This document shows, one piece after another, positions 20,454 through 61,517 of a DNA stretch of 64,000 nt. The stretch lies in contig NZ_JARHUJ010000004.1 in the NCBI RefSeq assembly GCF_029223285.1, positions 620,001 to 684,000 of the forward strand, in the 5' to 3' direction. Under the pieces are notes generated by a model. It saw nothing but the letters and a program-made list of their open reading frames with translations. It was not told the DNA's origin and made no database searches. The stretch's first letter is position 1. Each line of letters begins with the position of its first letter. This DNA is from Paraflavitalea sp. CAU 1676. GTDB lineage: Bacteria > Bacteroidota > Bacteroidia > Chitinophagales > Chitinophagaceae. Position numbers and translations under genes: made by a program.

Positions 20454-20530
20454 TATACCGTAAAGCCGCAAGTAAATAAACCTTCTTGTGCAATACCCCC
20501 ACGATCGTATACCGTTTAGCCGCAAGTAAT
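20454..20530. repeat. Pair of near-identical 23-base direct repeats
   Basis: The two copies (20454-20476 and 20508-20530) share TATACCGT and AGCCGCAAGTAA and differ at about two positions. They start 54 bases apart. The second copy reaches the stop codon of the molybdopterin-fold gene, and the first lies in the following gap. No terminator is evident there. Confidence 0.6.
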
Positions 20531-21033
20531 CAATCCTTTGCAAAACGTACCACCATTTCCACCACTTGGAAGCAGCTGCGGGCCGGCCGCTTTTCACCCG
20601 GCACCACCAGCCGGAACGGGCCTTTACCAGATGGCAGGGGCCCCCCATCCACCTGGTGCGCCAGGATCACCTGCCTGTCTGTAAATTCATTATCGAGCTC
20701 GGCCAGCGAGAACACCACTTCGTAGCCATCGGCGCATTTTACCAGTAGGTACTTGGCCAGATTTTCTCCATGAAGTTGCTTGCCGGTGGTCACCCCCGCT
20801 TTATTCAGTAGGTCCTGAATGGGCACCCCCGTATAGGTATGCTCTTTACCATCGCGGTCTTTTAACATGGCTGGTGTTTGTTTCATGCCGAGTATTTCCG
20901 CAGCGGTTATTTTGGTGGGCGCTTTTACCTCGCCGTTGATCGCAAGAGCTACCGGATTGTCTTTATTTTGAGTCCATGCAGCCTTTGTCAGTAAACAGGT
21001 GGACAGCAATAGAAAAAACAGTCTTGTTTTCAT
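20530..21033 (-). CDS. Exported molybdopterin-oxidoreductase-fold (Oxidored_molyb) protein
   Basis: A 167-residue protein: signal peptide (LFFLLLSTCLLTKAAWTQ), then a single domain like the sulfite-oxidase-type molybdopterin-binding domain (PF00174): TYTGVPIQDLLNKAGV, LLVKCADGYEVVFSLAELD and GGPLPSGKGPFRLVVPGEKRPAR. It is shorter than sulfite oxidase or MsrP, and I see no clear equivalent of the molybdenum-ligating Cys in its usual N-terminal region, so it may bind a cofactor or oxyanion without redox catalysis. Its ATG overlaps the stop codon of the di-heme peroxidase gene (ATGA), showing translational coupling. It belongs to the unit with the ModE-like regulator and TonB receptor. Confidence 0.82.
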   Translation of the reverse strand: MKTRLFFLLLSTCLLTKAAWTQNKDNPVALAINGEVKAPTKITAAEILGMKQTPAMLKDRDGKEHTYTGVPIQDLLNKAGVTTGKQLHGENLAKYLLVKCADGYEVVFSLAELDNEFTDRQVILAHQVDGGPLPSGKGPFRLVVPGEKRPARSCFQVVEMVVRFAKD

Positions 21034-22112
21034 TTCGATTGATTTTTGAAAGGATCCGAGAATCGTTGGTCGCTAATAAATGTTGAATCGGTAAGCATTT
21101 GTAGAAAAGCCAGCAGGTCTTTTTTTTCAGCTGCAGAAAGTCCCAATTGATTACCACGCATTCCTTCGGCTCCCTGCTGCAAAAACACGCTTAGGGTTGA
21201 ACTGCTGTGTATATGCTCATTGTAATGGTCGATCACGGCATCCAGCTTGTCGAAGCGTCCATCATGCATATAAGGAGCCGTCAGCGCAATGTTGCGCAGT
21301 GTGGCAACGCGAAACCGGCCTGCGTCGAACGACTGGCCCGTAATGGCGGCGCGCCCTGCGTCTTGCGGCACACTATCGAGACCGTTGTTATGATACAATT
21401 CAAGAAAGGTCTTCGGGCCTCCATGACAATGACCGCAGGCCGCGCCGCGGATGCCCTTTTCGCGGTTGGGATTGGTAAAGAACAGTTGGATGCCATTTAA
21501 CTCCGACGGGCCTGGTTGGTATTCACCCCGCAGGTACTGGTCGTACTTCGAGTTGGAGGAGATCAGCGTACGTTCAAACTGCGCGATTGCCTTAACAATA
21601 AGATCACCGGTGATGACCGGCGTGCCGAATGCTTTTGCAAACAGGGGAGGATACACCTTCGTGCGTTGTAGTAGTTGTGCCGACCGTTCCGGCGACTGCC
21701 CCATTTCATGCGGATCTGTCAGGGGTATGGAAGCCTGCGCCTCCAGCCCTTTTGTCCGTCCATCCCAGAAGAAGTTGCGCACCCACAGCAGGTTGGCCAG
21801 CGACATGGCATTGCGTGGCGTGGAGGTCCCATCCACGCCAAGGCTGAAACGAAGGCCATCGGTAAAGGCTTTCTCCTGCTGGTGACAGCTGGCGCAGGAA
21901 ATACGACCGTTGGCCGAAAGACGGGGTTCATAGAATAAATGCCTGCCAAGGAAAACACCCTCTTCTGTAAGCGGGTTGTTTGCCGGCATATCAAAGCGGT
22001 TACCGAAGTAGGAGGGGTATTGCAGTTGCATGGGGGTAGCCACCGGCTGCTCCACCCAGGCCGCAAGGCAAACCAGTGTAACCATCGTACCTATTACTTT
22101 GATCCGTTTCAT
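21030..22112 (-). CDS. Di-heme cytochrome c peroxidase (MauG/CcpA family)
   Basis: A 360-residue periplasmic di-heme protein. It has an N-terminal hydrophobic signal (IGTMVTLVCLAAWV), first heme site CASCH (C73, C76, H77) and second heme site CGHCH (C226, C229, H230). Other family motifs are EGVFLGRHLFYEPRLS, RNAMSLANLLW, DPHEMG and APYMHDGRFDKLDAVIDHYNEH. The family reduces hydrogen peroxide or, as in MauG, performs protein oxidation. I chose the ATG at 22112 as the start of a normal signal peptide. It lies 16 bases after the TonB receptor gene and overlaps the molybdopterin-fold gene, so the three are co-transcribed. Confidence 0.94.
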   Translation of the reverse strand: MKRIKVIGTMVTLVCLAAWVEQPVATPMQLQYPSYFGNRFDMPANNPLTEEGVFLGRHLFYEPRLSANGRISCASCHQQEKAFTDGLRFSLGVDGTSTPRNAMSLANLLWVRNFFWDGRTKGLEAQASIPLTDPHEMGQSPERSAQLLQRTKVYPPLFAKAFGTPVITGDLIVKAIAQFERTLISSNSKYDQYLRGEYQPGPSELNGIQLFFTNPNREKGIRGAACGHCHGGPKTFLELYHNNGLDSVPQDAGRAAITGQSFDAGRFRVATLRNIALTAPYMHDGRFDKLDAVIDHYNEHIHSSSTLSVFLQQGAEGMRGNQLGLSAAEKKDLLAFLQMLTDSTFISDQRFSDPFKNQSK

Positions 22113-22128
22113 AGCATGCTTTCCGGTA

Positions 22129-24153
22129 TTACAAACGATACACGACATTCACGAAATAGTTTCTGCCTGGTTCAGGATAGCCTTCCACTAGCGAATAATT
22201 CACATCGCCAATATTGTTAATGCCGCCTTCCACCGAAAAGTATTTCCATACCGGTACCAGTGCCCGCGCATTCAACAGGGTAAATGAACCTGCCTTGGTG
22301 CCATAAGTGGTGCTGTAACGATCAGCATTGTATTCTATATTGGCCTGCAATGAAAACCAGTGCTGAAGTTGGTATTGCGCAAAGCCAAACACCTTATGTT
22401 CCGGTACATCCGTAAACCGGATCGCCGGATTGCTGAGGTTATTACGTTTTACATAGGTATAGTTGGTGCCCAGTTTAAGCGATGCGATCAATAGGTATTC
22501 GAAACCGGCTTCAACGCCCATGAACTCCGACTCACCTACATTTTGCAATTGACTTTGCCACACTTTGCGCACAGAGTCGTACTTCACATTGCTGACGCTC
22601 TGTATCGTATTGTGGATCTTGCTGTAGAAGAGGGCCGCTTGCAGGCTCAGCCGGTTGTTGAAATAGCCCCGGTAACCCAATTCGTAATTGAGGGCATATT
22701 CAGCAGCGAGGTAAGGATTGGGAATCGCTGTGCCGAGCCGGTACGAATACCGGTCTTTCGTGGTGGCAAACCGCGTTTTCCTGGCTGCACTCGCAGTGAA
22801 TGTACTGTTGTTGTTTAAACGGTATTCCAATCCACCTTGTATGTTAAAGGCATCGTTGTCATTAGAAGGGTAGTCGGAGATGGTCTTGGTGGTGGAATTA
22901 TAATCCTGGGCCTTCAGGCTGTTGCGGTTATTGTAGCTAAGTCCTGTCAGCAACAATAACTGGTCCGTGATTTTGAATTCGTTTTCCAAACCGGCCGTAA
23001 AGGTATTGTCGCTCATGGTACGTTCTGGCTCCCCTTCATTGTGCTCGCGATGCACGTCCTGCTTAAACTGAACGGTGAGCTTCAGTTGATCACGCTGCTG
23101 CCAAAAACCTCGTCCGTATTCTGCAATGCCGCCGAAGGTATAATCATTGTAATGGCTCTTGAAGGCGTAAGGCCGGGATATACTGGTATAGGTAGCGTCG
23201 TCGTAAGAGTTGAGCTGGTTCTTGAACTTGTCGTAATATAAGCGGGCCTTTATATATTGGACACTATCGATGGCTGTATTGGCAATGAAGTAGAGGCTTT
23301 GCTTATCCCAATAGGGCCACTGCCAGTACCGCGGACTTTTGAACTGACTGTTCAAAGTATCTTTCCCTGTGTATACCGGCGATCCCTTTTTGCCGTGCTG
23401 ATAAATATAACTCAGGGCATACTCCGATCTTTTGTTGGGGGTAAAGCCCACCTTCACACTGTACTTCTCATCGGAGTTGTAGGAGTTGTTGCGTCCATCT
23501 CCATTTTCTGTTTTAGTGCCAATGAAATTATTCGATAACGGAAACGAGTCACGGTTCAGTTTGGAAGCGCCTGCCTGAACATAGAACTTGCCAAGGTTGC
23601 TGCCTACATTGATATTCATGCGGTACCCGCCCGATAGCCAGCCACTGGCGCCATTTATTTCCAGTTTCTTTTCGGGCCGGCTGCTCACGAGGTTGATAGC
23701 CCCTCCCAAAGCGTTGGGTCCATAGAGTACAGAGGTATATCCTTTCGAAACGTGGATGGCCGAAAGGTCGAAAGTAGTGAAACGGGCCAGGTCAACATAG
23801 CCGTCATAGGGAATGTAAACCGGAATACCGTCTATCAGTAAGGGTACCTGCCGCAGATCGAATCCACGCACATACACCATGGCCTCATTACGCGGACCTA
23901 CAGCAGACAGATGTACGCCGGGCAGCAGGTTGAGCGCTTTGGAAACATCGTTTTTGGCAAACGTTTGTAGGCGGTTACGGCTGAGAAAACCGTTCAGGTC
24001 CGATTGTTTTTTGCTGATCACCTCAACGGTGCCAAGGGTAAAAATGCGTGGTGGCAGTGAGTCGGTCGGCTTTCGGGATTGGGTAGGAGAGCGTTCTTGT
24101 GCTTCGCACCAGGACGCAGCCAGTAGGCTTGCCCACAACAGCATTTTAGTCAT
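22129..24153 (-). CDS. TonB-dependent outer-membrane receptor, ModE-box controlled
   Basis: A 674-residue receptor. The signal peptide (LLWASLLAASWCEAQE) is followed by a plug domain with VEVISKKQSDL, LNLLPGVHLSAVGPRNEAMVYVRG, LLIDGIPVYIPYDG and LYGPNALGGAINLVSS. A 22-strand barrel extends to the C-terminal GRNYFVNVVYRL. There is no carboxypeptidase-regulatory N-terminal extension, unlike SusC proteins, and no SusD partner. I chose the ATG at 24153 because it opens a signal peptide. A ModE-like box lies 19 bases upstream and a ModE-like regulator gene is next in line, so the cargo may be molybdate, tungstate or a chelate of either; the barrel sequence alone does not show this. Confidence 0.93.
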   Translation of the reverse strand: MTKMLLWASLLAASWCEAQERSPTQSRKPTDSLPPRIFTLGTVEVISKKQSDLNGFLSRNRLQTFAKNDVSKALNLLPGVHLSAVGPRNEAMVYVRGFDLRQVPLLIDGIPVYIPYDGYVDLARFTTFDLSAIHVSKGYTSVLYGPNALGGAINLVSSRPEKKLEINGASGWLSGGYRMNINVGSNLGKFYVQAGASKLNRDSFPLSNNFIGTKTENGDGRNNSYNSDEKYSVKVGFTPNKRSEYALSYIYQHGKKGSPVYTGKDTLNSQFKSPRYWQWPYWDKQSLYFIANTAIDSVQYIKARLYYDKFKNQLNSYDDATYTSISRPYAFKSHYNDYTFGGIAEYGRGFWQQRDQLKLTVQFKQDVHREHNEGEPERTMSDNTFTAGLENEFKITDQLLLLTGLSYNNRNSLKAQDYNSTTKTISDYPSNDNDAFNIQGGLEYRLNNNSTFTASAARKTRFATTKDRYSYRLGTAIPNPYLAAEYALNYELGYRGYFNNRLSLQAALFYSKIHNTIQSVSNVKYDSVRKVWQSQLQNVGESEFMGVEAGFEYLLIASLKLGTNYTYVKRNNLSNPAIRFTDVPEHKVFGFAQYQLQHWFSLQANIEYNADRYSTTYGTKAGSFTLLNARALVPVWKYFSVEGGINNIGDVNYSLVEGYPEPGRNYFVNVVYRL

Positions 24154-24171
24154 GGAAATATCAGTTTTAAG

Positions 24172-24195
24172 CGTTATTCCCGTAAAGATATAACG
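24172..24195. promoter_or_regulatory. ModE-type operator in front of the TonB receptor gene
   Basis: CGTTAT (24172-24177) and ATAACG (24190-24195) form a perfect inverted repeat with a 12-base spacer. As I recall it, the E. coli modA operator has the same half-sites with the same spacing. It ends 19 bases upstream of the receptor's ATG. A weak -7-like TATCTTTA on the minus strand lies inside it, so binding would block transcription. The adjacent regulator has a ModE-type DNA-binding domain. Confidence 0.65.
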
Positions 24196-24311
24196 ATGTC
24201 GCTGAATTACCATACGGCACACTCCAGGCAGTAAAACAAACCAAATCAGAAAGGGCACTGGTATTTACATGAATGCAGCAAGCTGTCCGTCAGTTTGTAG
24301 AGGCCGGCAAC

Positions 24312-24686
24312 TCAAATCATCTCTTGCAAGCTGCTGGTTTCTGCTTCGAGGAATTGCAGAAACCTTTCCCGCAGTTGGTGGTGATATTCGATCATAGCTT
24401 TGGCGGCCACCGAAATGGAGGAACCACCTCCTTTTTCGCCGCCGGTGGCCGTTACGACCATCGGTTCTTTGCTCATGGAGTTTAGACGGGATACGATCTC
24501 CCAGGCCTTCTTATACGACATGCCCATTTCTTTGGCCGCCTGGTTGATGGAACCGGTCGACTCGATATGTTCCAGCAGTTCCACAGGGCCCGGACCCCAA
24601 AACCGGGTGCCATCGCCCTCAATCCAAAGGCTGCCCTTTACGGAATAGGATCCCTTCTTGAAGATATCCTTGGTAGACTTTTTCAT
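24312..24686 (-). CDS. ModE-like DNA-binding protein without a molybdate-binding domain
   Basis: A 124-residue winged-helix protein clearly related to the N-terminal domain of ModE: LLEHIESTGSINQAAKEMGM, SYKKAWEIVSRLNSMS and the glycine-rich TGGEKGGGSS. ModE proper continues with two Mop (molbindin) domains that bind molybdate; here the protein ends about 25 residues after the DNA-binding domain. It may therefore be a constitutive repressor, sense an oxyanion at the dimer interface, or need a separate partner. It is the first gene of the minus-strand unit with the receptor, peroxidase and molybdopterin-fold protein, and a ModE box precedes the receptor gene. Confidence 0.9.
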   Translation of the reverse strand: MKKSTKDIFKKGSYSVKGSLWIEGDGTRFWGPGPVELLEHIESTGSINQAAKEMGMSYKKAWEIVSRLNSMSKEPMVVTATGGEKGGGSSISVAAKAMIEYHHQLRERFLQFLEAETSSLQEMI

Positions 24687-24690
24687 GCTG

Positions 24691-24721
24691 CAAATGTATC
24701 TAGTTTAAACAAGGCATGCAA
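24691..24721 (-). promoter_or_regulatory. Promoter of the ModE-like gene
   Basis: On the minus strand TTG (24721-24719), a 20-base spacer and TACATTTG (24698-24691) make a full Bacteroidota promoter. The -7 box ends only four bases before the ATG, so the mRNA would be nearly leaderless. The remainder of the 315-base gap to 25001 shows nothing else I can support. Confidence 0.5.
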
Positions 24722-27264: not shown

Positions 27265-27627
27265 ATGCAAAAACTCGCTAAAAGGGAAGAACAGATCATG
27301 ATCGTATTCTGGGATTTGAAGAAGGCCTTTATACGGGAAGTGATCCCCCACCTGCCCGACCCCAAGCCACACTATAATAGTGTAGCTACGATGGTGAAGA
27401 TCTTAGAAGATAAAGGCTTCCTGAGCCACGAAGCAGTTGGTAATATGTATAGTTACTTTCCGCTCATCGAACGGGAGGATTATCAGAAGCACGCCATCAA
27501 AGACATCGTTAGCCAGTATTTCGACAATTCCTACCCGCGTATGCTGGCTTTTTTTGCCAAAGAGCAAAACCTATCAGAAGACGAACTCAATGAAATAGTG
27601 AACATCATTAAAACCAAGAAAAAATGA
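27265..27627 (+). CDS. BlaI/MecI/CopY-family repressor (locus 1)
   Basis: A 120-residue winged-helix repressor: MQKLAKREEQIMIVFWDLKK at the N-terminus, HYNSVATMVKILEDKGFLSHEAVGNMYSYFPLI for the recognition helix and wing, and a C-terminal dimerisation helix. In the classical system BlaI represses until cleaved after activation of BlaR1. Here the stop overlaps the start of the BlaR1-type gene by four bases (ATGA), so the two are translationally coupled. A perfect palindrome covers its promoter. No beta-lactamase gene is nearby, so the regulated target is probably something else. Confidence 0.94.
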   Translation: MQKLAKREEQIMIVFWDLKKAFIREVIPHLPDPKPHYNSVATMVKILEDKGFLSHEAVGNMYSYFPLIEREDYQKHAIKDIVSQYFDNSYPRMLAFFAKEQNLSEDELNEIVNIIKTKKK

Positions 27628-30197
27628 TGCATTATATCACCAATGCAGGTCTTATCCTGGCGGGATGCTTCATCTTCTACAAGCTCCTGCTGCAGAAAGA
27701 AACCTTTTTCCGCGCCAACCGCTGGATATTACTGGCCTGCCTGGCGCTCTCGTTCAGCTTGCCGCTCGTTCGGGTACCCGAACAGTGGTCGTTGCGCAAG
27801 CCAGGCATAGCGACTTCAACAGAAGAAGCGGGCTCAGGCAGTATTACCGCCAACGAAACTACCAACGAACCCGTGAATACGGGAGCAACGGAAGGTAATA
27901 CCAGCGCAGAAACAAAGCAGGAGAATACAACAGGTGCGTTGAAAGCGCCTCAAAATAGTGACCCTGCTACGGCAGCCGCATCAACACCACCAGTCACCAA
28001 CAATACCAGAGACACGGATACCAACTTCTTTACCTGGCAGCAGGCACTTACCTGGGCTGGCTGGCTGTATTGGTTTGGTGTGTTCGTCTTTGCCGGTAAC
28101 TTCCTGGTTCAGCTCTTTACATTATTGTATCGAGCCTATTCGCGGCCGGTGATCCGTGATGGTAAATTCCGCATCGTAGAGCTCTCCGGTAACCAGGCGC
28201 CCTGCTCTTTCCTCAATAATATTTTCATCAACCCCGAGAAGTATGATTGGGAAACCTACAACCAGATACTCGAGCATGAAAAGATACACATAGAACAAAA
28301 GCATAGCTTCGATCTGCTGGTTGCCGAACTGGTGATTGTATTCCAGTGGTTCAACCCCTTTGCCTGGCAATACAGGAAGGCCCTGGAAAATAATCTCGAA
28401 TACCTGACCGACGATCAGCTCGTCAACTACAAACAGGTAGAGAAAGCAACCTACCAACTAAGCCTGCTCAAAGTTTCGGCTCCCCACTTTCCGCTAAACC
28501 TGACCACCAATTATAATCAATCACTGCTCAAAAAACGTATAGCCATGATGAACGTAAAAAAATCAAATCTTCACACCGCGTGGAAGTATTGCTTCCTGCT
28601 TCCTTTGCTCGTATTGTTTGTGTGCCTGCTCAATGAGCCCATCGCGTCGGCACATGAGCCCGCTACTAAAAAGTCTTCCATGATGGGCGAAAACTTCTTC
28701 CGTACAGATATGGAAACGGAGGGCGCCTGGTTCGCTACCATCAATGCTAAAAAGCAGGAAGTGAGCATCCAGTTCAAGAGCGATGGCGATGAACACTCCA
28801 ACAACAGTACTACTTTTCCTCTGCGCGACCTCGGAGAGCTGCCAAGAGACAAATCGGGCATCTTTACCGTTACCCGCGAAGCAGGTATCATGCAGTTTAC
28901 CGGCAAGTTCGAAGGCGATCAGGGCATGGGGCGCTACAAATTCACACCGGCTGCCGGATTTGCAGAGACCATGAAAAAGGAAGGCATCGAACTGCGCCAT
29001 GACAAAGATGTGCTGGTATTCTTCTTCGTGAATGTCACCCACAGCTATGTAAAAATGCTGAAGAACAATGGTTACAACGATATCGACCGGGATGATGTAA
29101 TACCACTGGCTGCCCTGAAGATCGATGAGCCCTATATCAAAGCCATAAAAGCCAGCGGCATCAAAGGGTTGTCGCAAAAGGACCTGGTGCCTTTCAAAGC
29201 ACTTGGCATCAATGGTGAATATATTGCCGAGATCCGCAAGGCCGGATACCCTGATGTATCTGCTCAGCAACTTATTTCCTTTAAGGCACAGAATATCGAT
29301 GCAAAGTACATAGCAGATGTGAAGGCGGCCAGCGCTGTTACCGCAAAGCCATCTGCATCTGGCACGGGAGCCAAACCTGCTGCGGCAGCCAAGGGAACCA
29401 ATCCAAACGCTAATCCCAACGTAAATGTGCATAACGATGTCGAGGTCAATACAGAAGTGTCCGCACAGGATATGATATCGATCAAGGCACTCAGGATCGA
29501 TCCGGAATACATCAGGTCGTTGAAAGCCGTTGGTTTCGACAACCTGCCCAATCATCAGATCATATCTATGAAAGCGAATGGCGTAACGCCGGAATATATT
29601 AAAGGATTAAAAGCAGCAGGTATAAATGATCTCCGGGCAGAGGATGTGATCTCCATGAAAGCGCTGAACGTAGACGCAGCCTATATTAATTCAATGAAGG
29701 CCGTTGGCGTCAACGATATCCCCACGCGTGAATACGCCAACATGAAAGCGATGGGAGTGGATGCAGCCTATGTAAAGTCTTTAAAGTCATCCGGGTTTAG
29801 TGATATATCCTCCCGCGATATATTGTCCGTTAAAGCACTGAATGTAACGCCGGAGTACGTAAAGTCGTTCGAAGCCCTTGGATATAAGAACATCATGCCC
29901 CGGCAGGCAGTATCTATGAAGTCGCTGGGCGTTACCTCCGATTATGTAAAAGGATTTCAGGATATCGGATACAAAGACTTCAGTCTTAACCAGGCAGTTA
30001 GTTTTAAAGCTATGAACATAACACCGGGTGTAGTAAAAGAGTATACCGACCTCGGCTTTGACCATCTTTCACTCAACGATGTGCTGAGCGCCAAAAGCAC
30101 CGGCACTACACCTGCCTTTATATCGTCGATGAAAGAAAAGGGACACAATTTCAAGAGCCTGCAAAAATATGTTCAACTGAAAACGATCATCGATTAA
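27624..30197 (+). CDS. BlaR1-type M56 membrane metallopeptidase with a long 29-residue repeat array
   Basis: An 857-residue protein. Membrane helices lie at about 6-22 and 33-50, then after a Thr/Asn-rich linker at about 145-170. The M56 peptidase domain carries the zinc motif HEKIH with a downstream Glu ligand (ENNLEYLTDD). A fourth helix (FLLPLLVLFVCLL) places the rest outside the membrane. Residues from about 475 to the end hold about twelve units of 29 residues with the pattern YI-x2-LK-x2-G(Y/F)-x-D-(I/L)-x4-(D/Q)-x-(I/V)-S-x-KA-x2-V-x-P-E-Y. Unit four is broken by an Ala/Asn-rich insert. It lacks the penicillin-binding sensor domain of true BlaR1, so the array may be the sensor or a scaffold. 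Confidence 0.92.
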   Translation: MMHYITNAGLILAGCFIFYKLLLQKETFFRANRWILLACLALSFSLPLVRVPEQWSLRKPGIATSTEEAGSGSITANETTNEPVNTGATEGNTSAETKQENTTGALKAPQNSDPATAAASTPPVTNNTRDTDTNFFTWQQALTWAGWLYWFGVFVFAGNFLVQLFTLLYRAYSRPVIRDGKFRIVELSGNQAPCSFLNNIFINPEKYDWETYNQILEHEKIHIEQKHSFDLLVAELVIVFQWFNPFAWQYRKALENNLEYLTDDQLVNYKQVEKATYQLSLLKVSAPHFPLNLTTNYNQSLLKKRIAMMNVKKSNLHTAWKYCFLLPLLVLFVCLLNEPIASAHEPATKKSSMMGENFFRTDMETEGAWFATINAKKQEVSIQFKSDGDEHSNNSTTFPLRDLGELPRDKSGIFTVTREAGIMQFTGKFEGDQGMGRYKFTPAAGFAETMKKEGIELRHDKDVLVFFFVNVTHSYVKMLKNNGYNDIDRDDVIPLAALKIDEPYIKAIKASGIKGLSQKDLVPFKALGINGEYIAEIRKAGYPDVSAQQLISFKAQNIDAKYIADVKAASAVTAKPSASGTGAKPAAAAKGTNPNANPNVNVHNDVEVNTEVSAQDMISIKALRIDPEYIRSLKAVGFDNLPNHQIISMKANGVTPEYIKGLKAAGINDLRAEDVISMKALNVDAAYINSMKAVGVNDIPTREYANMKAMGVDAAYVKSLKSSGFSDISSRDILSVKALNVTPEYVKSFEALGYKNIMPRQAVSMKSLGVTSDYVKGFQDIGYKDFSLNQAVSFKAMNITPGVVKEYTDLGFDHLSLNDVLSAKSTGTTPAFISSMKEKGHNFKSLQKYVQLKTIID

Positions 30198-54882: not shown

Positions 54883-55806
54883 ATGAAAACAGTACTACTA
54901 AAGCGGAAATGGATGTGGTTGGCTGTTTGCCTCGCAGCGGTAGGTTGCGAGCGCGATTTTGAAATAGACCTCAATGATGGCCAGCCGCAACTTATCGTGG
55001 AAGCATATATCAATAACGAAATGCCCCTGTACAATTATGTGGTGTTGAGCAGGAGTAAGGACTTTTATGAATCGGGCCTGCAAAATGTGGCCGTAACAGG
55101 CGCAATGGTAACGATCACAGAAGGCATGCGCATGCCCGACAATACCTACCAGTGGGATGGCGCCACCACGGTACAAATGAAGGAAGGGCGGTTGCAGCAA
55201 TTGAACAATTCGAGCCTGCCAGGCTTTTATTTCGATCAACGCCTGGCTACCGATTCAATCAATGCATTGATGGGCAAACCCGGTAAGAGTTATAAACTGG
55301 ACATAGAAGCAGATGGGAAAAAGTACAGCGCCATAACCGAACTGCTGATACCCGTTGCCATCGACAGCCTGACCCTCGGAAACTATTACCTCGACAAGAA
55401 CGAAGACACCGTTTACAGAAAAGCGCGTATAACCGTGCATTATAAAGACCCGGATACCATTGGCAACACCCAACTCTATTATTGGCGCCATTGGGAAAAT
55501 CGTAATAGTTTTGGCTGGGGCGCCCTGGGTACCAACCGCTATACGCCGGGTACCGACGACCTCATCAACGGACAATATGTAGACCTCACCTTATCGAATG
55601 GTTTTGTAATAGGCGATACGGTCAATTACTTTATGTCCAGTGTGGAACGCAAAGTGTATAATTTCTGGGACAGCTTCAATAAAGCCCGGAGCAATGGAGG
55701 CCCCTTCGCAACCCCGGTTTCGTTGCAGAGCACCATCTCCGGAGAAAACGTGGTGGGCTGTTTCAGTGGTTTCAGCCTGAGCGGAAAAACGATCTCTATA
55801 AAGTAA
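54883..55806 (+). CDS. DUF4249 lipoprotein, partner of the TonB receptor
   Basis: A 307-residue surface lipoprotein. The signal ends in AAVGC, a good lipobox, followed by ERDFEIDLNDGQPQLIVEAYINNEMPLYNYVVLSRS, the DUF4249 signature. Further typical stretches are GKSYKLDIEADGKKYSAITELLIP and a Tyr/Trp-rich core (LYYWRHWENRN). DUF4249 proteins are nearly always next to a TonB receptor in Bacteroidota and are thought to help capture its cargo. The four-base gap to the receptor gene shows co-transcription. Confidence 0.9.
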   Translation: MKTVLLKRKWMWLAVCLAAVGCERDFEIDLNDGQPQLIVEAYINNEMPLYNYVVLSRSKDFYESGLQNVAVTGAMVTITEGMRMPDNTYQWDGATTVQMKEGRLQQLNNSSLPGFYFDQRLATDSINALMGKPGKSYKLDIEADGKKYSAITELLIPVAIDSLTLGNYYLDKNEDTVYRKARITVHYKDPDTIGNTQLYYWRHWENRNSFGWGALGTNRYTPGTDDLINGQYVDLTLSNGFVIGDTVNYFMSSVERKVYNFWDSFNKARSNGGPFATPVSLQSTISGENVVGCFSGFSLSGKTISIK

Positions 55807-55932
55807 TCTGGCCGAGATCGGGCTGGCCTTGTAACAAATGGTATTGTTGTAACGACAAATGGCCCTGACCGGGAACTGGCTTTGCAGGTAAGAATGGGTG
55901 GCAACCGGCATTTCTTCATAAAATGCTTAACC

Positions 55933-56397
55933 ATGGAACAAACCATCGTGTTGAAGGTCAATGGCAAGTCTTCATCGGTAACCATCGATCCCGAAACGCC
56001 ATTGCTGTATGCCTTGCGCAATAACCTGCACCTGAACGGACCAAAATACGGTTGCGGAATGGCGCTATGCGGTAGTTGTATGGTTTTACTGGATGGAAAG
56101 GCACAACCCTCCTGCATCATGCCCTGCAGTGCGGCAGCCGCTCACAACATTACCACCCTCGAAGGGATAGGAACTGCCCAGGCACTACACCCCCTGCAGC
56201 AAGCTGTGATAGAAACGCAGGCCGCCCAATGCGGCTATTGCCTCAACGGTGTCATCATGTGCGCCAAACAACTCCTGGATGAGCACGGATCGCCTTCCGA
56301 AGCACAGATCAAAGAAGCATTGCAGCGGGTATTGTGCCGTTGCGGCACCCATACCCGGTTTATTGCCGCTATAAAAAAGGCTGCAGCCATGAAGTGA
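55933..56397 (+). CDS. 2Fe-2S subunit of a molybdenum hydroxylase (isoquinoline 1-oxidoreductase alpha-like)
   Basis: A 154-residue iron-sulfur subunit of the xanthine dehydrogenase family. The first cluster uses C41, C46, C49 and C61 (GPKYGCGMALCGSCMVLLDG). The second uses C100, C103, C135 and C137 (AAQCGYCLNGVIMC and VLCRCGTHTR). It passes electrons from the molybdenum cofactor to an external acceptor, possibly a cytochrome. I chose the ATG at 55933, which gives the normal length without a signal peptide; the frame is open from 55882. The catalytic subunit starts 35 bases later. Lacking its own signal, it is probably carried across the membrane with the Tat-dependent partner. Confidence 0.94.
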   Translation: MEQTIVLKVNGKSSSVTIDPETPLLYALRNNLHLNGPKYGCGMALCGSCMVLLDGKAQPSCIMPCSAAAAHNITTLEGIGTAQALHPLQQAVIETQAAQCGYCLNGVIMCAKQLLDEHGSPSEAQIKEALQRVLCRCGTHTRFIAAIKKAAAMK

Positions 56398-56432: not shown

Positions 56433-58655
56433 ATGCCAATTCCTGTCAATAATACACCCACCAACGAATCCCGCCGGCGATTCCTGCGCCACACCGGCCA
56501 ACTGCTGATCGGCTTTCATTTATTACCCGCTTCTCTCAGGCTGGCACAGGCGGGCGAAACGATCAGTCCCATGCCAGACGAAGGCAATATCAATACCTGG
56601 TTGAGGCTGGATGCCGAAGGCAACCTAACGGTGCTTACCGGCAAAACGGAACTGGGTCAGGGTATTAAAACGGCCCTGATGCAGATTGCAGCAGAAGAAT
56701 TGGATATATCCATGCAGAAGGTAAACATCATTATAGCCGACACAGCCCAAACAGCCGATGAAAGGTATACGGCGGGGAGTGCCTCCATCACCGCCAGCGG
56801 CAGCGCCATACGGTCGGCAGCGGCAGAAGCCCGGAAAATATTACTGGAACTGGCAGCAGCACAACTCCACACAACTGTGCAGCAACTGGCCGTAAAGGAT
56901 GGCGTAGTTACAGCGCTGAACACCAAAGAGGCAATTAGTTATGGGGCATTGCTGAAGGGAAGATCGATAGAAGGAAAAGTTACGGAGAAAGCTCCTTTGA
57001 AGGATCCTGCTAAATATACCATTGTAGGTACTGCCTGGCCGCGCGACGATATCAAAGCCATGGCAACCGCACAACCCGTATATGTGCAGGATATCAGGAT
57101 GCCCGGCATGGTGCACGCGCGGATATTGCGTCCGCCGGTGTATGGGGCAAAACTATCCTCCCTGCCCAATGATGATCCTGCCGGTGTTACGGGCCTCCTC
57201 AAAATATTTCGCAATGGAAGTTTCGTGGCAGTGGTTACCAGCGAAGAATACCAGGCCATCAAGGCACTTAAATACCTGCGTGAAAAAGCGATATGGCAAA
57301 AGCCGGTACTGTCGCCGGCGCAGGATAAATTATTCGATCAAGTTACCGCATTACCCTTGAAAGGTGAGGAGGTGGCGAAGAACGAGGCGGCTGAAGCTGC
57401 CATCGCCGGGGCGGCTGCCAAAGTAGAAGCTGTCTATAAACGGCCCTATCAGATGCATGGCTCCATAGGCCCCTCCTGTGCCGTGGCATTATGGAAAGAG
57501 GATCTGCTTACCGTGTGGTCACATTCACAGGGAGCTTTCCCATTGCGCAGTACACTCGCCGATCTGTTGCACCTTCCCGAATCGAAGATCAGGGTGATCG
57601 CGGTGCCCGGTTCGGGCTGTTACGGTCATAACGGAGCCGACGATGCAGGTGCAGATGCGGCCCTGTTGGCAATGGAATTACCCGGGCGGCCGGTACGCGT
57701 GCAGTGGATGCGCGAAGATGAACATTGCTGGGAGCCTTACGGATCTGCGATGGTCATGAAACTTACCGGTGGTTTGGATGCCAGCGGGCAACTATTGGCC
57801 ATCGATACCACCTTGTGGTCCGATACGCACGTCGCGAGGCCCGGCGGCAAAGCCGGGCACTTCCTGGCTGGCCGCGATCTGGCAACCCCCTTTACCTTCA
57901 CACCCGGTGGCTATTCGGGCGGTAGCTACCGCAATGCATTGCCGTTGTACGATACATTGCGTAAAGTGACCTTGTTCAATTATAAAGGACCGCTGAGAAC
58001 TTCGGCCCTGCGTAGTCTTGGCGCTTATGCCAACATCTTTGCCCTCGAATCATTCATGGATGAACTGGCCATTCGTGCCGGTAAAGACCCTGCCGCCTTC
58101 CGTCTGCAAAATTTGAAAGACGAGCGGGCTAAGGCCGTTATTCAAAAAGTAATGGACATAACGCAGTGGGAAAAGCGAACCGGAGCAAAAGCGGCTTCGG
58201 TTGGATGGGGCATCGCATTCGCACAATACAAGAATGATGCAGCTTATTTTGCCGTGGTAGCCGAAGTTGCGATCGACAAAACGGCCAAACAGTACCGCGT
58301 CAAATCACTCACCGGTGTAATCGATGCCGGGCAGGTGATCAATATAGACGGACTAAAAAACCAGACCGAAGGGGGCATGATACAATCAACCAGTTGGACC
58401 CTGCTGGAGCAGGTACAGTATAACGAAAAGGGAATATTGAGCCGCGGCTGGGATTCCTATCCCATCCTGCGTTTTCAGGCTGTGCCGTCTATAGCCGTGG
58501 AAGTCATCAACAGACCTGGGTCACCACCCGTGGGCGCCGGAGAAGCGGCTCAGGGACCTACGGCGGCGGCCATTGCCAACGCCATCTATCAGGCCACCGG
58601 CAGTAGGCTGCGCGAGCTGCCACTCAAACCAGACAAAATAAACTGGCAATACTAA
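56433..58655 (+). CDS. Molybdopterin-binding catalytic subunit of an exported molybdenum hydroxylase (IorB-like)
   Basis: A 740-residue catalytic subunit of the aldehyde oxidase/isoquinoline oxidoreductase type. It has a Tat signal (NESRRRFLRHTGQLLIG), FTVLTGKTELGQGIKTALMQIAAEEL-like cofactor-binding segments, YTAGSASITASGSAIRSAAAEARK, and the active-site Glu704 in VGAGEAAQGP. It should hydroxylate an aldehyde or N-heterocycle using water; the molybdenum ligand is presumed to be molybdopterin cytosine dinucleotide. It forms a two-gene unit with the 2Fe-2S subunit. Dependence on molybdenum links it by function to the ModE-type unit at 20.5-24.7 kb, though no ModE box was found here. Confidence 0.94.
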   Translation: MPIPVNNTPTNESRRRFLRHTGQLLIGFHLLPASLRLAQAGETISPMPDEGNINTWLRLDAEGNLTVLTGKTELGQGIKTALMQIAAEELDISMQKVNIIIADTAQTADERYTAGSASITASGSAIRSAAAEARKILLELAAAQLHTTVQQLAVKDGVVTALNTKEAISYGALLKGRSIEGKVTEKAPLKDPAKYTIVGTAWPRDDIKAMATAQPVYVQDIRMPGMVHARILRPPVYGAKLSSLPNDDPAGVTGLLKIFRNGSFVAVVTSEEYQAIKALKYLREKAIWQKPVLSPAQDKLFDQVTALPLKGEEVAKNEAAEAAIAGAAAKVEAVYKRPYQMHGSIGPSCAVALWKEDLLTVWSHSQGAFPLRSTLADLLHLPESKIRVIAVPGSGCYGHNGADDAGADAALLAMELPGRPVRVQWMREDEHCWEPYGSAMVMKLTGGLDASGQLLAIDTTLWSDTHVARPGGKAGHFLAGRDLATPFTFTPGGYSGGSYRNALPLYDTLRKVTLFNYKGPLRTSALRSLGAYANIFALESFMDELAIRAGKDPAAFRLQNLKDERAKAVIQKVMDITQWEKRTGAKAASVGWGIAFAQYKNDAAYFAVVAEVAIDKTAKQYRVKSLTGVIDAGQVINIDGLKNQTEGGMIQSTSWTLLEQVQYNEKGILSRGWDSYPILRFQAVPSIAVEVINRPGSPPVGAGEAAQGPTAAAIANAIYQATGSRLRELPLKPDKINWQY

Positions 58656-59735: not shown

Positions 59736-61517
59736 ATGACTGGCGCATATTTATTCATACACGGCACATTGACCCAAAAGATATTGCAGGCATTTACCTG
59801 GATGCTCGTACATTCTATATGGCAGGGATTCCTCTTGGCGCTCCTCGCTGGTGCAGCTATGTTGTCGATGCGAAAGTCGGCCCCCGATAAGCGATACAAG
59901 GCATTGGCCGTACTGCTGGCTGGGTACCTGGTTACTTGTTTGTTAACGTTTGTATATGTATGGAATGATGCACCGGCCGTTAATGATGCACCCGGAACAG
60001 GGATGGCGATTGCCGAATGGAAAGGATTTGCCATCACCAACATCATACATTGGCTTAACGATTATTGCACCACACATGCTACCTTAATTGTAGCCACCTG
60101 GTTTTTCCTCTTTGCCTTCCGTTGCTGGCAAATGACGATGGCCATCAAATACGTCAAAAAGGTAAAAACGAAACAACTGTCGGGCCCGCCGGATGGATGG
60201 CAGCAAAAGGTCAATACGTTCGCATACCAACTCGGTATCGGCAAAGCCGTAACCTTGCTGGAGTCGGGTGTTACCAAAGTACCGGTAGTCATCGGCCACC
60301 TGAAGCCCGTTATCTATATGCCGCTTGGTTTACTGGCCAACTTGCCGCCTCACCAGGTAGAAGCCGTGTTACTCCATGAACTGGCCCATATCCGCCGCCA
60401 TGATTACCTGTTCAACTGGGTGCAGCATCTGGCAGAAACGGTTTTCTTCTTCAACCCCGGATTGTTGTGGGTATCGGCCTTGTTGCGGGAAGAAAGAGAG
60501 CATTGCTGTGATGACATCGCCTTGTCATATACCGGCAACAGGAAACAATTTATACAAGCGTTGATCAACTTTAAGGAACAGGTAAGTCAACAGGGCGCTT
60601 ATGTGATGGCGTTTCCCGGTAAGAAAAGCCAGTTGTTGCAACGGGTTACCCGCATCGTTCACAACCGAAACAATGCATTTAATGGCATTGAGAAAGGGTT
60701 CCTGCTACTGAGTGCTTTTGTTTGCCTGCTGTTGCTGGCAACCTTTGTCACCGATCAAAAGCAGGTTCAAACATGGACAGCCGAAACAATAACAGCAACT
60801 CCATTGATGCACGTTAGCCAGCCTGCGAACGCAGAACCGCCTGCTGATCGGTCTCGTACGGTTTTGCCCGTCAAATCATCTGGCCGTTCACGTAAGTCTA
60901 ACAATACTGCCACCTCCGAAATACCGGCCTCCATCGTGATAGGGACAAGCGTAGAGCCGTCAACGGTTCCACAAGAACCCGTTCAGCAACACCCAACGGA
61001 GTACACCGGGCAGCAGGAAGAAATGAAGTCTGAAATTGATGTAACAGCGCAGTACCATGCAGCTTTGATTGAGCAGCATCGTCGCCAGGCGGCGCAGGAT
61101 AACCAGCAGGCAGCCGTGCAACGCGAAAAGGCCGAACAGGATAGAAAGGAGGCTGAACGTCATCGTGCACAGGCAGCTATCGAACGTATACAAGCGGAAC
61201 GGCACCGGGAGCGGGCCGAGGCAGACCGTCGCAAAGCGGAGCAAGACCGCGAACAGGCAGAACAATATCGGCAGCTGGCAGCTGATGATCAGGCGAAGGC
61301 GGATCATAATCGCGAGAGGGCCGCCAAAGACCATCAACAGGCACTGCAGCATGCCGCACAAGCCGAGAAAGACCGGCAGCGTGCAGAGATCGATCGCCGG
61401 CATGCCGAACTTGATAGGGCACGCGCAGAGCGCGACCGGGTACAGGCCGACAAAGACAGGGCTCGCGCAATGACCGGACGAAACCTGGCCGAAAGCAGGC
61501 AGTATAGCCGGCAATAA
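59736..61517 (+). CDS. BlaR1-type M56 metallopeptidase with C-terminal heptad-repeat helix
   Basis: A 593-residue membrane protease. Membrane helices are at about 12-38, 48-70, 108-130 and 323-345. The zinc motif is HELAHIRRHDY, with the downstream Glu in REEREHCCDDIAL. After the last helix come a Pro/Thr-rich linker (about 365-430) and a helical tail (about 438-593) of roughly nineteen heptads with the pattern x-x-A-E-x-D-R (EKAEQDR, ERAEADR, ARAERDR). The tail lies outside the membrane. It has no penicillin-binding domain. The next gene codes for a secreted protein of the same heptads, so a coiled-coil or matching-helix contact between the two is plausible. Confidence 0.93.
   Translation: MTGAYLFIHGTLTQKILQAFTWMLVHSIWQGFLLALLAGAAMLSMRKSAPDKRYKALAVLLAGYLVTCLLTFVYVWNDAPAVNDAPGTGMAIAEWKGFAITNIIHWLNDYCTTHATLIVATWFFLFAFRCWQMTMAIKYVKKVKTKQLSGPPDGWQQKVNTFAYQLGIGKAVTLLESGVTKVPVVIGHLKPVIYMPLGLLANLPPHQVEAVLLHELAHIRRHDYLFNWVQHLAETVFFFNPGLLWVSALLREEREHCCDDIALSYTGNRKQFIQALINFKEQVSQQGAYVMAFPGKKSQLLQRVTRIVHNRNNAFNGIEKGFLLLSAFVCLLLLATFVTDQKQVQTWTAETITATPLMHVSQPANAEPPADRSRTVLPVKSSGRSRKSNNTATSEIPASIVIGTSVEPSTVPQEPVQQHPTEYTGQQEEMKSEIDVTAQYHAALIEQHRRQAAQDNQQAAVQREKAEQDRKEAERHRAQAAIERIQAERHRERAEADRRKAEQDREQAEQYRQLAADDQAKADHNRERAAKDHQQALQHAAQAEKDRQRAEIDRRHAELDRARAERDRVQADKDRARAMTGRNLAESRQYSRQ

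Follow-up and report, generated by a model that had tools for sequence, protein, structure and literature searches.

A 64,000-nucleotide stretch of the genome of Paraflavitalea sp. CAU 1676 (Bacteroidota, Chitinophagaceae; contig NZ_JARHUJ010000004.1, positions 620,001 to 684,000), hereafter the window, carries a minus-strand operon in which the gene for a TonB-dependent outer-membrane receptor stands behind an exact ModE-type operator and the gene for a ModE-type DNA-binding protein. We read it as a ModE-repressed operon that acquires molybdenum (or tungsten) at the outer membrane and in the periplasm, and give this reading a probability of about two in three. The operator site, the order of the genes, their conservation among relatives and the co-occurrence with genes for the molybdenum cofactor (Moco) and with mod genes are observed. 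Site, linkage and co-occurrence also back the molybdenum (or tungsten) role given to the receptor in the original prediction, which was made from the sequence of this DNA; its choice of cargo, namely molybdate, tungstate or a chelate, is kept here as a suggestion. The receptor is called TBDTa and the small SUOX-fold protein encoded at the end of the operon is called FOLD.

The operon and its operator

The features of the locus are as follows.

24312..24686, minus strand: ModE-type DNA-binding protein of 124 aa, helix-turn-helix only, with no molbindin (Mop) domain (TIGR00637; relatives aligned)
24172..24195, minus strand: operator CGTTATATCTTTACGGGAATAACG, 18 bp upstream of the receptor ATG (pattern match and conservation)
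22129..24153, minus strand: TonB-dependent outer-membrane receptor (TBDTa), 674 aa from the ATG at 24153, with plug and barrel domains
21030..22112, minus strand: MbnH/MauG-like di-heme protein, an optional member (TIGR04039, CCP_MauG)
20530..21033, minus strand: small exported SUOX-fold protein, PruR-like (FOLD), 167 aa, without the Mo-ligand Cys (Oxidored_molyb)

Recomputed coordinates bear out the four predicted minus-strand genes, modE-like, TonB receptor, di-heme protein and SUOX-fold protein, together with the 16-base gap between the receptor and di-heme genes and the ATGA overlap of the di-heme and FOLD genes. The regulator gene (24686-24312) matches TIGR00637 in a profile search (E 1.6e-22, 79.4 bits, under the cut-off of 98.5), and the full-length ModE model scores 62 bits against 369 and matches only residues 29-105; HTH_1 is the sole Pfam domain of the protein. 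The receptor carries the plug (PF07715, 67.6 bits) and barrel (PF00593, 112.4 bits) domains. Its likely start is the ATG at 24153; a signal peptide opens there and the repeat is left 18 bp upstream; the mechanical open reading frame from the GTG at 24258 would enclose the operator. The di-heme gene has an alternative ATG at 22148.

The 24-bp inverted repeat CGTTAT-N12-ATAACG predicted before the receptor gene is confirmed as an exact match, 116 bp past the ModE gene. It is the sole exact copy in the window, where shuffling gives an expectation of 0, and exact copies occur nowhere else in the 8.84 Mb genome. As the reversed pattern, taken as a control, gives two matches per strand in the same genome, the lone genome-wide copy proves nothing by itself, and it is placement and conservation that do. 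None of 5000 dinucleotide shuffles of 24101-24312 contains an exact copy. That the box is a chance palindrome was considered and rejected: the lone genome copy lies within chance, and the placement and recurrence lie beyond it. TAnnTTTG, which we take to be the Bacteroidota -7 element, occurs in 6 of 27 oriented exact boxes in the forward direction and 0 of 27 in reverse, and is absent from the window's box.

Passages of the literature on Escherichia coli ModE give its consensus operator as ATCGNTATATA-N6-TATATANCGAT and include molybdate-uptake and Moco genes among its targets (PMC545781). The window box has the same half-sites and spacing and is conserved before molybdenum-related genes in relatives, which upholds its assignment as a ModE-type site. 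The window differs from E. coli in that its regulator consists of the DNA-binding domain only and in that the main target is an outer-membrane receptor. According to the same passages, ModE proteins consisting of nothing but the DNA-binding domain are known from Desulfovibrio and Desulfotalea-type genomes, the Desulfovibrio site differs, and how a ModE without molbindin senses molybdenum is unclear in Desulfovibrio (PMC545781).

Conservation in relatives and linkage to molybdenum genes

The site recurs before the receptor in a set of loci assembled without regard to ModE or to the site, by means of a profile of 16 receptor orthologues. Among 395 genomes of the phylum, 40 match this profile. 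Thirty matches were examined, one of them the window, with 12 further match rows left out. The proposed search upstream of receptor orthologues found a site with no more than one mismatch (~250 bp upstream) in 26 of the 29 other loci, 10 of them exact; it is missing from L204, L205 and L219, of which the last offers no more than 248 bp of upstream sequence (locus and family labels are those of the analysis). By family, sites are present in f82, f84 (24/25) and f89, and not in f55 and f91; the green-sulfur FMO protein was looked for in four f82 and f84 genomes, which all have it, and in four others, which all lack it. As a control, none of 51 window genes has a site upstream at up to two mismatches, the receptor being counted here from its mechanical start, so that its box falls outside the scanned stretch. 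A second, distinct type of TonB receptor, present in Chitinophaga filiformis among others, has the site before it in 10 of 13 loci. Many green sulfur receptors have two ModE-type boxes before them, mostly 110-185 bp apart (L211, L214, L216-L218, L220, L222, L224, L226-L229).

The gene order is conserved too. FOLD lies downstream of the receptor in 17 of the 29 loci, judged by gene order, and the sequence of L203 stops before this can be judged; a FecCD permease follows the receptor instead in f82 and in a single f84 genus (Pfam, 2/2 tested). Linkage of regulator, receptor and fold protein holds up, as ModE-receptor-FOLD triads recur in Bacteroidia, where those found by way of FOLD include L168 with an exact site, L174 with one mismatch and L173 with two. 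The refuting condition named in the original prediction, that orthologues would lack conserved ModE neighbours or boxes, did not come about, though some orthologues lack the box.

The same site is met from the side of the regulator. Five ModE proteins served as queries to gather 62 ModE loci from titled records, a few of them from genomes already present in the earlier sets, so that the sets overlap. These loci hold 23 exact sites spread over 22 loci, and between -500 and +700 of ModE an exact site is present in 19 of the 62 and one with up to one mismatch in 33, against means of 0 and 0.11, respectively, over 100 shuffles. The genes beside sites with up to one mismatch comprise two distinct TonB receptor types, FOLD, MbnH, a DUF2490 protein, ModE itself and an exported protein without a Pfam match, and, on the Moco side, MoaA, MoeA, cysteine-desulfurase-led Moco operons and a molybdenum hydroxylase. 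The exported protein, of 180-209 aa, replaces the receptor downstream of the ModE box in L042, L044, L057 and L118, where in L118 it is followed by TauE; it is probably an outer-membrane barrel, and L044, with no Pfam match, is the sole copy tested. Among 11 regions around FOLD matches in the family, the site is exact in L014, L015, L017 and L024 and has one mismatch in L018, preceding, respectively, MbnH-FOLD, receptor-MbnH-FOLD, receptor-FOLD, another receptor and FOLD alone; the other six show no site with fewer than two mismatches.

FOLD belongs with molybdenum. Of 117 sampled genomes of the family, the host genome included, 12 hold FOLD and 11 hold ModE, one of these ModE copies being a broken piece; MoaA is found in 56, and 15 have a ModB that exceeds the cut-off. 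MoaA is present in 12/12 FOLD and 11/11 ModE carriers (Fisher 7e-5 and 1.7e-4) against 56/117 overall, and FOLD and ModE occur together in six genomes (Fisher 1e-4). In the class, FOLD is found in 41 of 395 genomes. Forty of the 41 matches outside the window were examined, and in 21 the stretch also contains ModE, either of the two receptors, ModAB or two or more Moco genes; 11 of the 21 have ModE with a receptor and 6 have ModAB. Pararhodonellum has the order ModE-FOLD-ModA-ModB-ModC, with ModA and ModB above the profile cut-off and ModC at 216.5 of 285 bits; Cyclobacterium shows the same order by clustering, and the sites in both carry two mismatches. In a tblastn search of plasmids, one from Pseudomonas aeruginosa proved to carry an exact site, a receptor aligning at 36% identity, FOLD, moaA and nar genes; another, from Deinococcus, carries modA and FOLD together with genes for a TOBE protein and a ModB-like permease. 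Short receptor and/or MbnH remnants lie beside the FOLD gene at L016:7196-7608 and L027:10778-11077, where the operon seems to have decayed while FOLD was kept.

Several observations weigh against the reading of the operon as a system for molybdenum acquisition. The window regulator is, by its sequence, devoid of a molybdate-sensing domain. No link of the kind counted above is shown by 19 of the 40 class FOLD loci. Within -500 to +700, 29 of the 62 ModE loci have no site at up to one mismatch, including 4/6 from Niastella, 2/2 from Longitalea and 7/7 from Runella. Since 25 of the 29 receptor loci belong to one family, the green sulfur f84, and are not independent, the count of 26 in 29 overstates the independence of its cases. 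For the 80 other genes of the receptor loci, an exact site lies upstream of 6 and one with up to one mismatch upstream of 18, which in our view stems from a shared stretch or from sites of their own. Seven triads with ModE adjacent or near (L164, L171, L172, L177, L180, L187, L188) have no site with up to two mismatches before the receptor; a search for variant boxes in siteless triads gave weak candidates in L171, L172, L173, L180, L186 and L187 and none in L164, L177, L188 and L205. Finally, a corrinoid or other chelate is a possible cargo, as the solved receptors nearest by sequence, BtuB and CirA, would suggest through BtuB, the closest of them.

Partner proteins and neighbouring genes

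FOLD opens with a stretch resembling a signal peptide and has a match to Oxidored_molyb (E 4.6e-12). Its structure model has a mean pLDDT of 90.6, and Foldseek places PruR (7KOM, 7KOS, 7KP2) best (first E 4.1e-8, TM by target 0.70-0.75) and SUOX enzymes next. The window protein has no Cys where the region of the SorA/SUOX Mo-ligand Cys aligns; an ordinary SUOX molybdoenzyme was therefore rejected as its identity, the Mo-ligand Cys being missing. Like PruR, it is a small exported SUOX fold without that Cys. The same stretch is Cys-free in the window lineage and in the checked ModA-ModB-linked copies (L070, L077, L199). A Cys is found there in 12 receptor- or ModE-linked copies of the class set (L164, L168, L171-L174, L177, L178, L180, L186-L188), in 16 of 17 copies of the phylum set, L204 being the exception, and in the Pseudomonas, Caballeronia and Burkholderia copies (L198, L200, L201). 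The motifs in this stretch are VCQSG, VCDSG and similar, and their Cys may sit at the ligand position.

Across 39 FOLD sequences G69, D102, Y104 and R152 are invariant. The sections of a 2026 review that treat PruR describe it as lacking the Mo-ligand Cys and as binding tetrahydropterin through Tyr104, Trp160 and residue 102. D102-x-Y104, present in 39/39 sequences, recalls PruR residue 102 and Tyr104, a likeness that is suggestive only; the window protein shows no evident counterpart of Trp160. FOLD differs from PruR in that the window neighbours include no DcpA-type cyclase, in that its relatives pair with a TonB receptor, ModE, ModAB and Moco genes, and in that many of them have a Cys where PruR has none. 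Of the proposal that the fold protein handles cargo binding, the conserved linkage to regulator and receptor stands; the protein lacks the Mo-ligand Cys and models closest to PruR, and the binding of cargo is offered as a suggestion.

The di-heme protein matches CCP_MauG (E 2.3e-56, 191 bits) and has two CxxCH motifs, as do MbnH/MauG enzymes, from which it differs in scoring 264.1 bits with the MbnH profile TIGR04039, under the cut-off of 362.85, and in having no MbnP partner in the window, as judged by a profile built from the few MbnP-type sequences at hand, which is a weak test. Its gene lies within the operon in the window, L014, L015, L025, L059, L062 and L204, with the remnants in L016 and L027, and was not seen in the remaining receptor loci. 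L062, from Niastella yeongjuensis, combines ModE, box, receptor, MbnH and FOLD. The protein was predicted to be a member of the unit with a redox role: it is present in the window operon and outside the conserved core, and the redox role is a possibility only. That it is a core part was considered and rejected on the strength of this distribution.

MbnH-like genes also occur outside this type of operon (L052 and L082, beside MbnP-type genes, and L081, L176, L196, L197), and in L176, L196 and L197 the gene is next to or two genes ahead of FOLD, with no ModE or receptor there. Among the receptor loci seen, MbnH-like genes accompany only FOLD without the Cys, and no Cys-bearing FOLD has one; the comparison sets the window, L015, L025, L059, L062 and L204 against L164, L168, L171-L174, L177, L178, L180, L187, L188, L198, L205 and the green sulfur loci. 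L017 and L040 have neither MbnH-like gene nor FOLD Cys. MbnH and the FOLD Cys may be alternative solutions.

Elsewhere in the window, 31 kb from the operon, genes at 55933-56397 and 56433-58655 (plus strand) encode a two-subunit molybdenum hydroxylase (2Fe-2S and large subunit) that resembles ModE-boxed hydroxylases of Chitinophaga; the best match to the box within 55501-56000 carries four mismatches. A pair of genes at 27265-30197 (plus strand), which we take to be BlaI/BlaR1-like, has a second protein with many SxKAxGxxxxYIxxxK repeats, and another such protein with long charged repeats is encoded at 59736-61517 (plus strand).

Proposed mechanism, alternatives and significance

When molybdenum is sufficient, the ModE-type protein would sit on the palindrome before the receptor gene and block the operon, and in molybdenum shortage, by analogy with E. 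coli ModE, repression would lift. The receptor, as its family suggests, would use TonB energy to import molybdate, tungstate or a molybdenum compound, for example a chelate, into the periplasm, a compound or chelate being the likelier cargo than the bare oxyanion because of the usual size of TonB cargo. The PruR-like FOLD protein, again judged by its family, would take up the cargo there and hand it to an inner-membrane system, presumably ModABC in some relatives and perhaps TauE/SafE in the host, and the MbnH-like protein would be an accessory, perhaps performing an oxidative step on cargo or partner. ModABC was rejected as the partner in the host genome, where no ModB exceeds the cut-off (best 21.9 bits); its one FecCD permease lies elsewhere in the genome. 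Contig C12 of the host carries moaA, a gene for a 93 aa protein, moeA, a gene for a TauE/SafE permease and mobA, in this order (L112:12027-17645), and TauE recurs in ModE or Moco operons of relatives. As the host has this MoaA-x-MoeA-TauE arrangement and no ModB above the cut-off, TauE/SafE is a candidate and may serve as molybdate permease of the inner membrane in genomes that lack ModABC.

It is rather unlikely that the operon serves instead to salvage molybdopterin or another Mo-pterin, with the receptor importing the pterin and FOLD binding it, perhaps with a Cys on the metal. The structure model, closest to a pterin binder and then to SUOX molybdoenzymes, would suit such a role, as would the invariant D-x-Y, comparable to residue 102 and Tyr104 of PruR, and the Cys that most receptor-linked FOLD copies outside the window lineage have in the Mo-ligand stretch. 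The window FOLD lacks this Cys, however, and FOLD also sits inside modA-modB operons, in which the checked copies are without it; all 12 FOLD genomes of the family sample have MoaA, and the PruR pocket is, according to the sections of the review on PruR, probably unable to accommodate Moco. A receptor for an iron-siderophore or a corrinoid in a ModE-controlled operon, supplying a cofactor needed alongside molybdoenzymes, is likewise improbable. BtuB and CirA as nearest solved relatives speak for it, as do the FecCD permease that follows the receptor in f82 and one f84 genus and the tetrapyrrole methylase nearby in those green sulfur loci (2/2 tested), but elsewhere the same receptor occurs with FOLD, ModA, ModE and Moco genes. 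MolBC is presumably of the FecCD type. It is described as a molybdate importer (PMC4031551), which counts against the siderophore or corrinoid reading.

That PruR is a signalling protein brings up a third idea, in which ligand-bound FOLD controls a membrane enzyme, as in PruR-DcpA, and the receptor supplies the signal. This is very improbable: no cyclase was found among the window neighbours scanned, with the relatives' neighbourhoods not searched for one, and transport and Moco genes abound in those neighbourhoods as far as these were seen. Molybdenum acquisition under ModE control remains the preferred reading. Its wider form, in which a dedicated TonB route in Bacteroidota, green sulfur bacteria and at least one Pseudomonas plasmid passes a Mo-pterin or Mo-chelate to a PruR/SUOX-like carrier and on to ModABC or TauE/SafE, is tentative and on balance doubtful.

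The usual assumption is that molybdate passes the outer membrane by way of porins, and a dedicated outer-membrane passage for molybdenum has hardly been studied so far. One partial precedent is OprC, a TonB receptor for copper under CueR in passages of PMC8602904. The window receptor would likewise stand under a metal regulator, and OprC chains are the best Foldseek matches of the window receptor at ~15% identity; the two differ in regulator and partners, and the fold likeness is generic to the class, drawn from a model of moderate confidence (mean pLDDT 69). The same source describes an outer-membrane step of molybdate acquisition by the H2-T6SS ModA-IcmP system of P. aeruginosa (PMC8602904), which differs in using secreted ModA and IcmP, with no TonB receptor or SUOX-fold partner in the passages concerned. 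None of the titles listed in the literature searches describes a TonB receptor for molybdate; Studholme and Pau 2003 (ModE element, green sulphur bacteria) could mention one. What would be new here is metal-regulated TonB uptake, known as such, for molybdenum and with a PruR/SUOX-like partner. If the reading is true, molybdenum would have a dedicated outer-membrane route in a conserved TonB receptor that is under ModE control and has a periplasmic partner of its own, the PruR/SUOX-like fold, so far known as an enzyme or pterin sensor, would have a new job, and Bacteroidota and green sulfur bacteria would offer a named receptor with which to test the idea of molybdenum-carrying siderophores.

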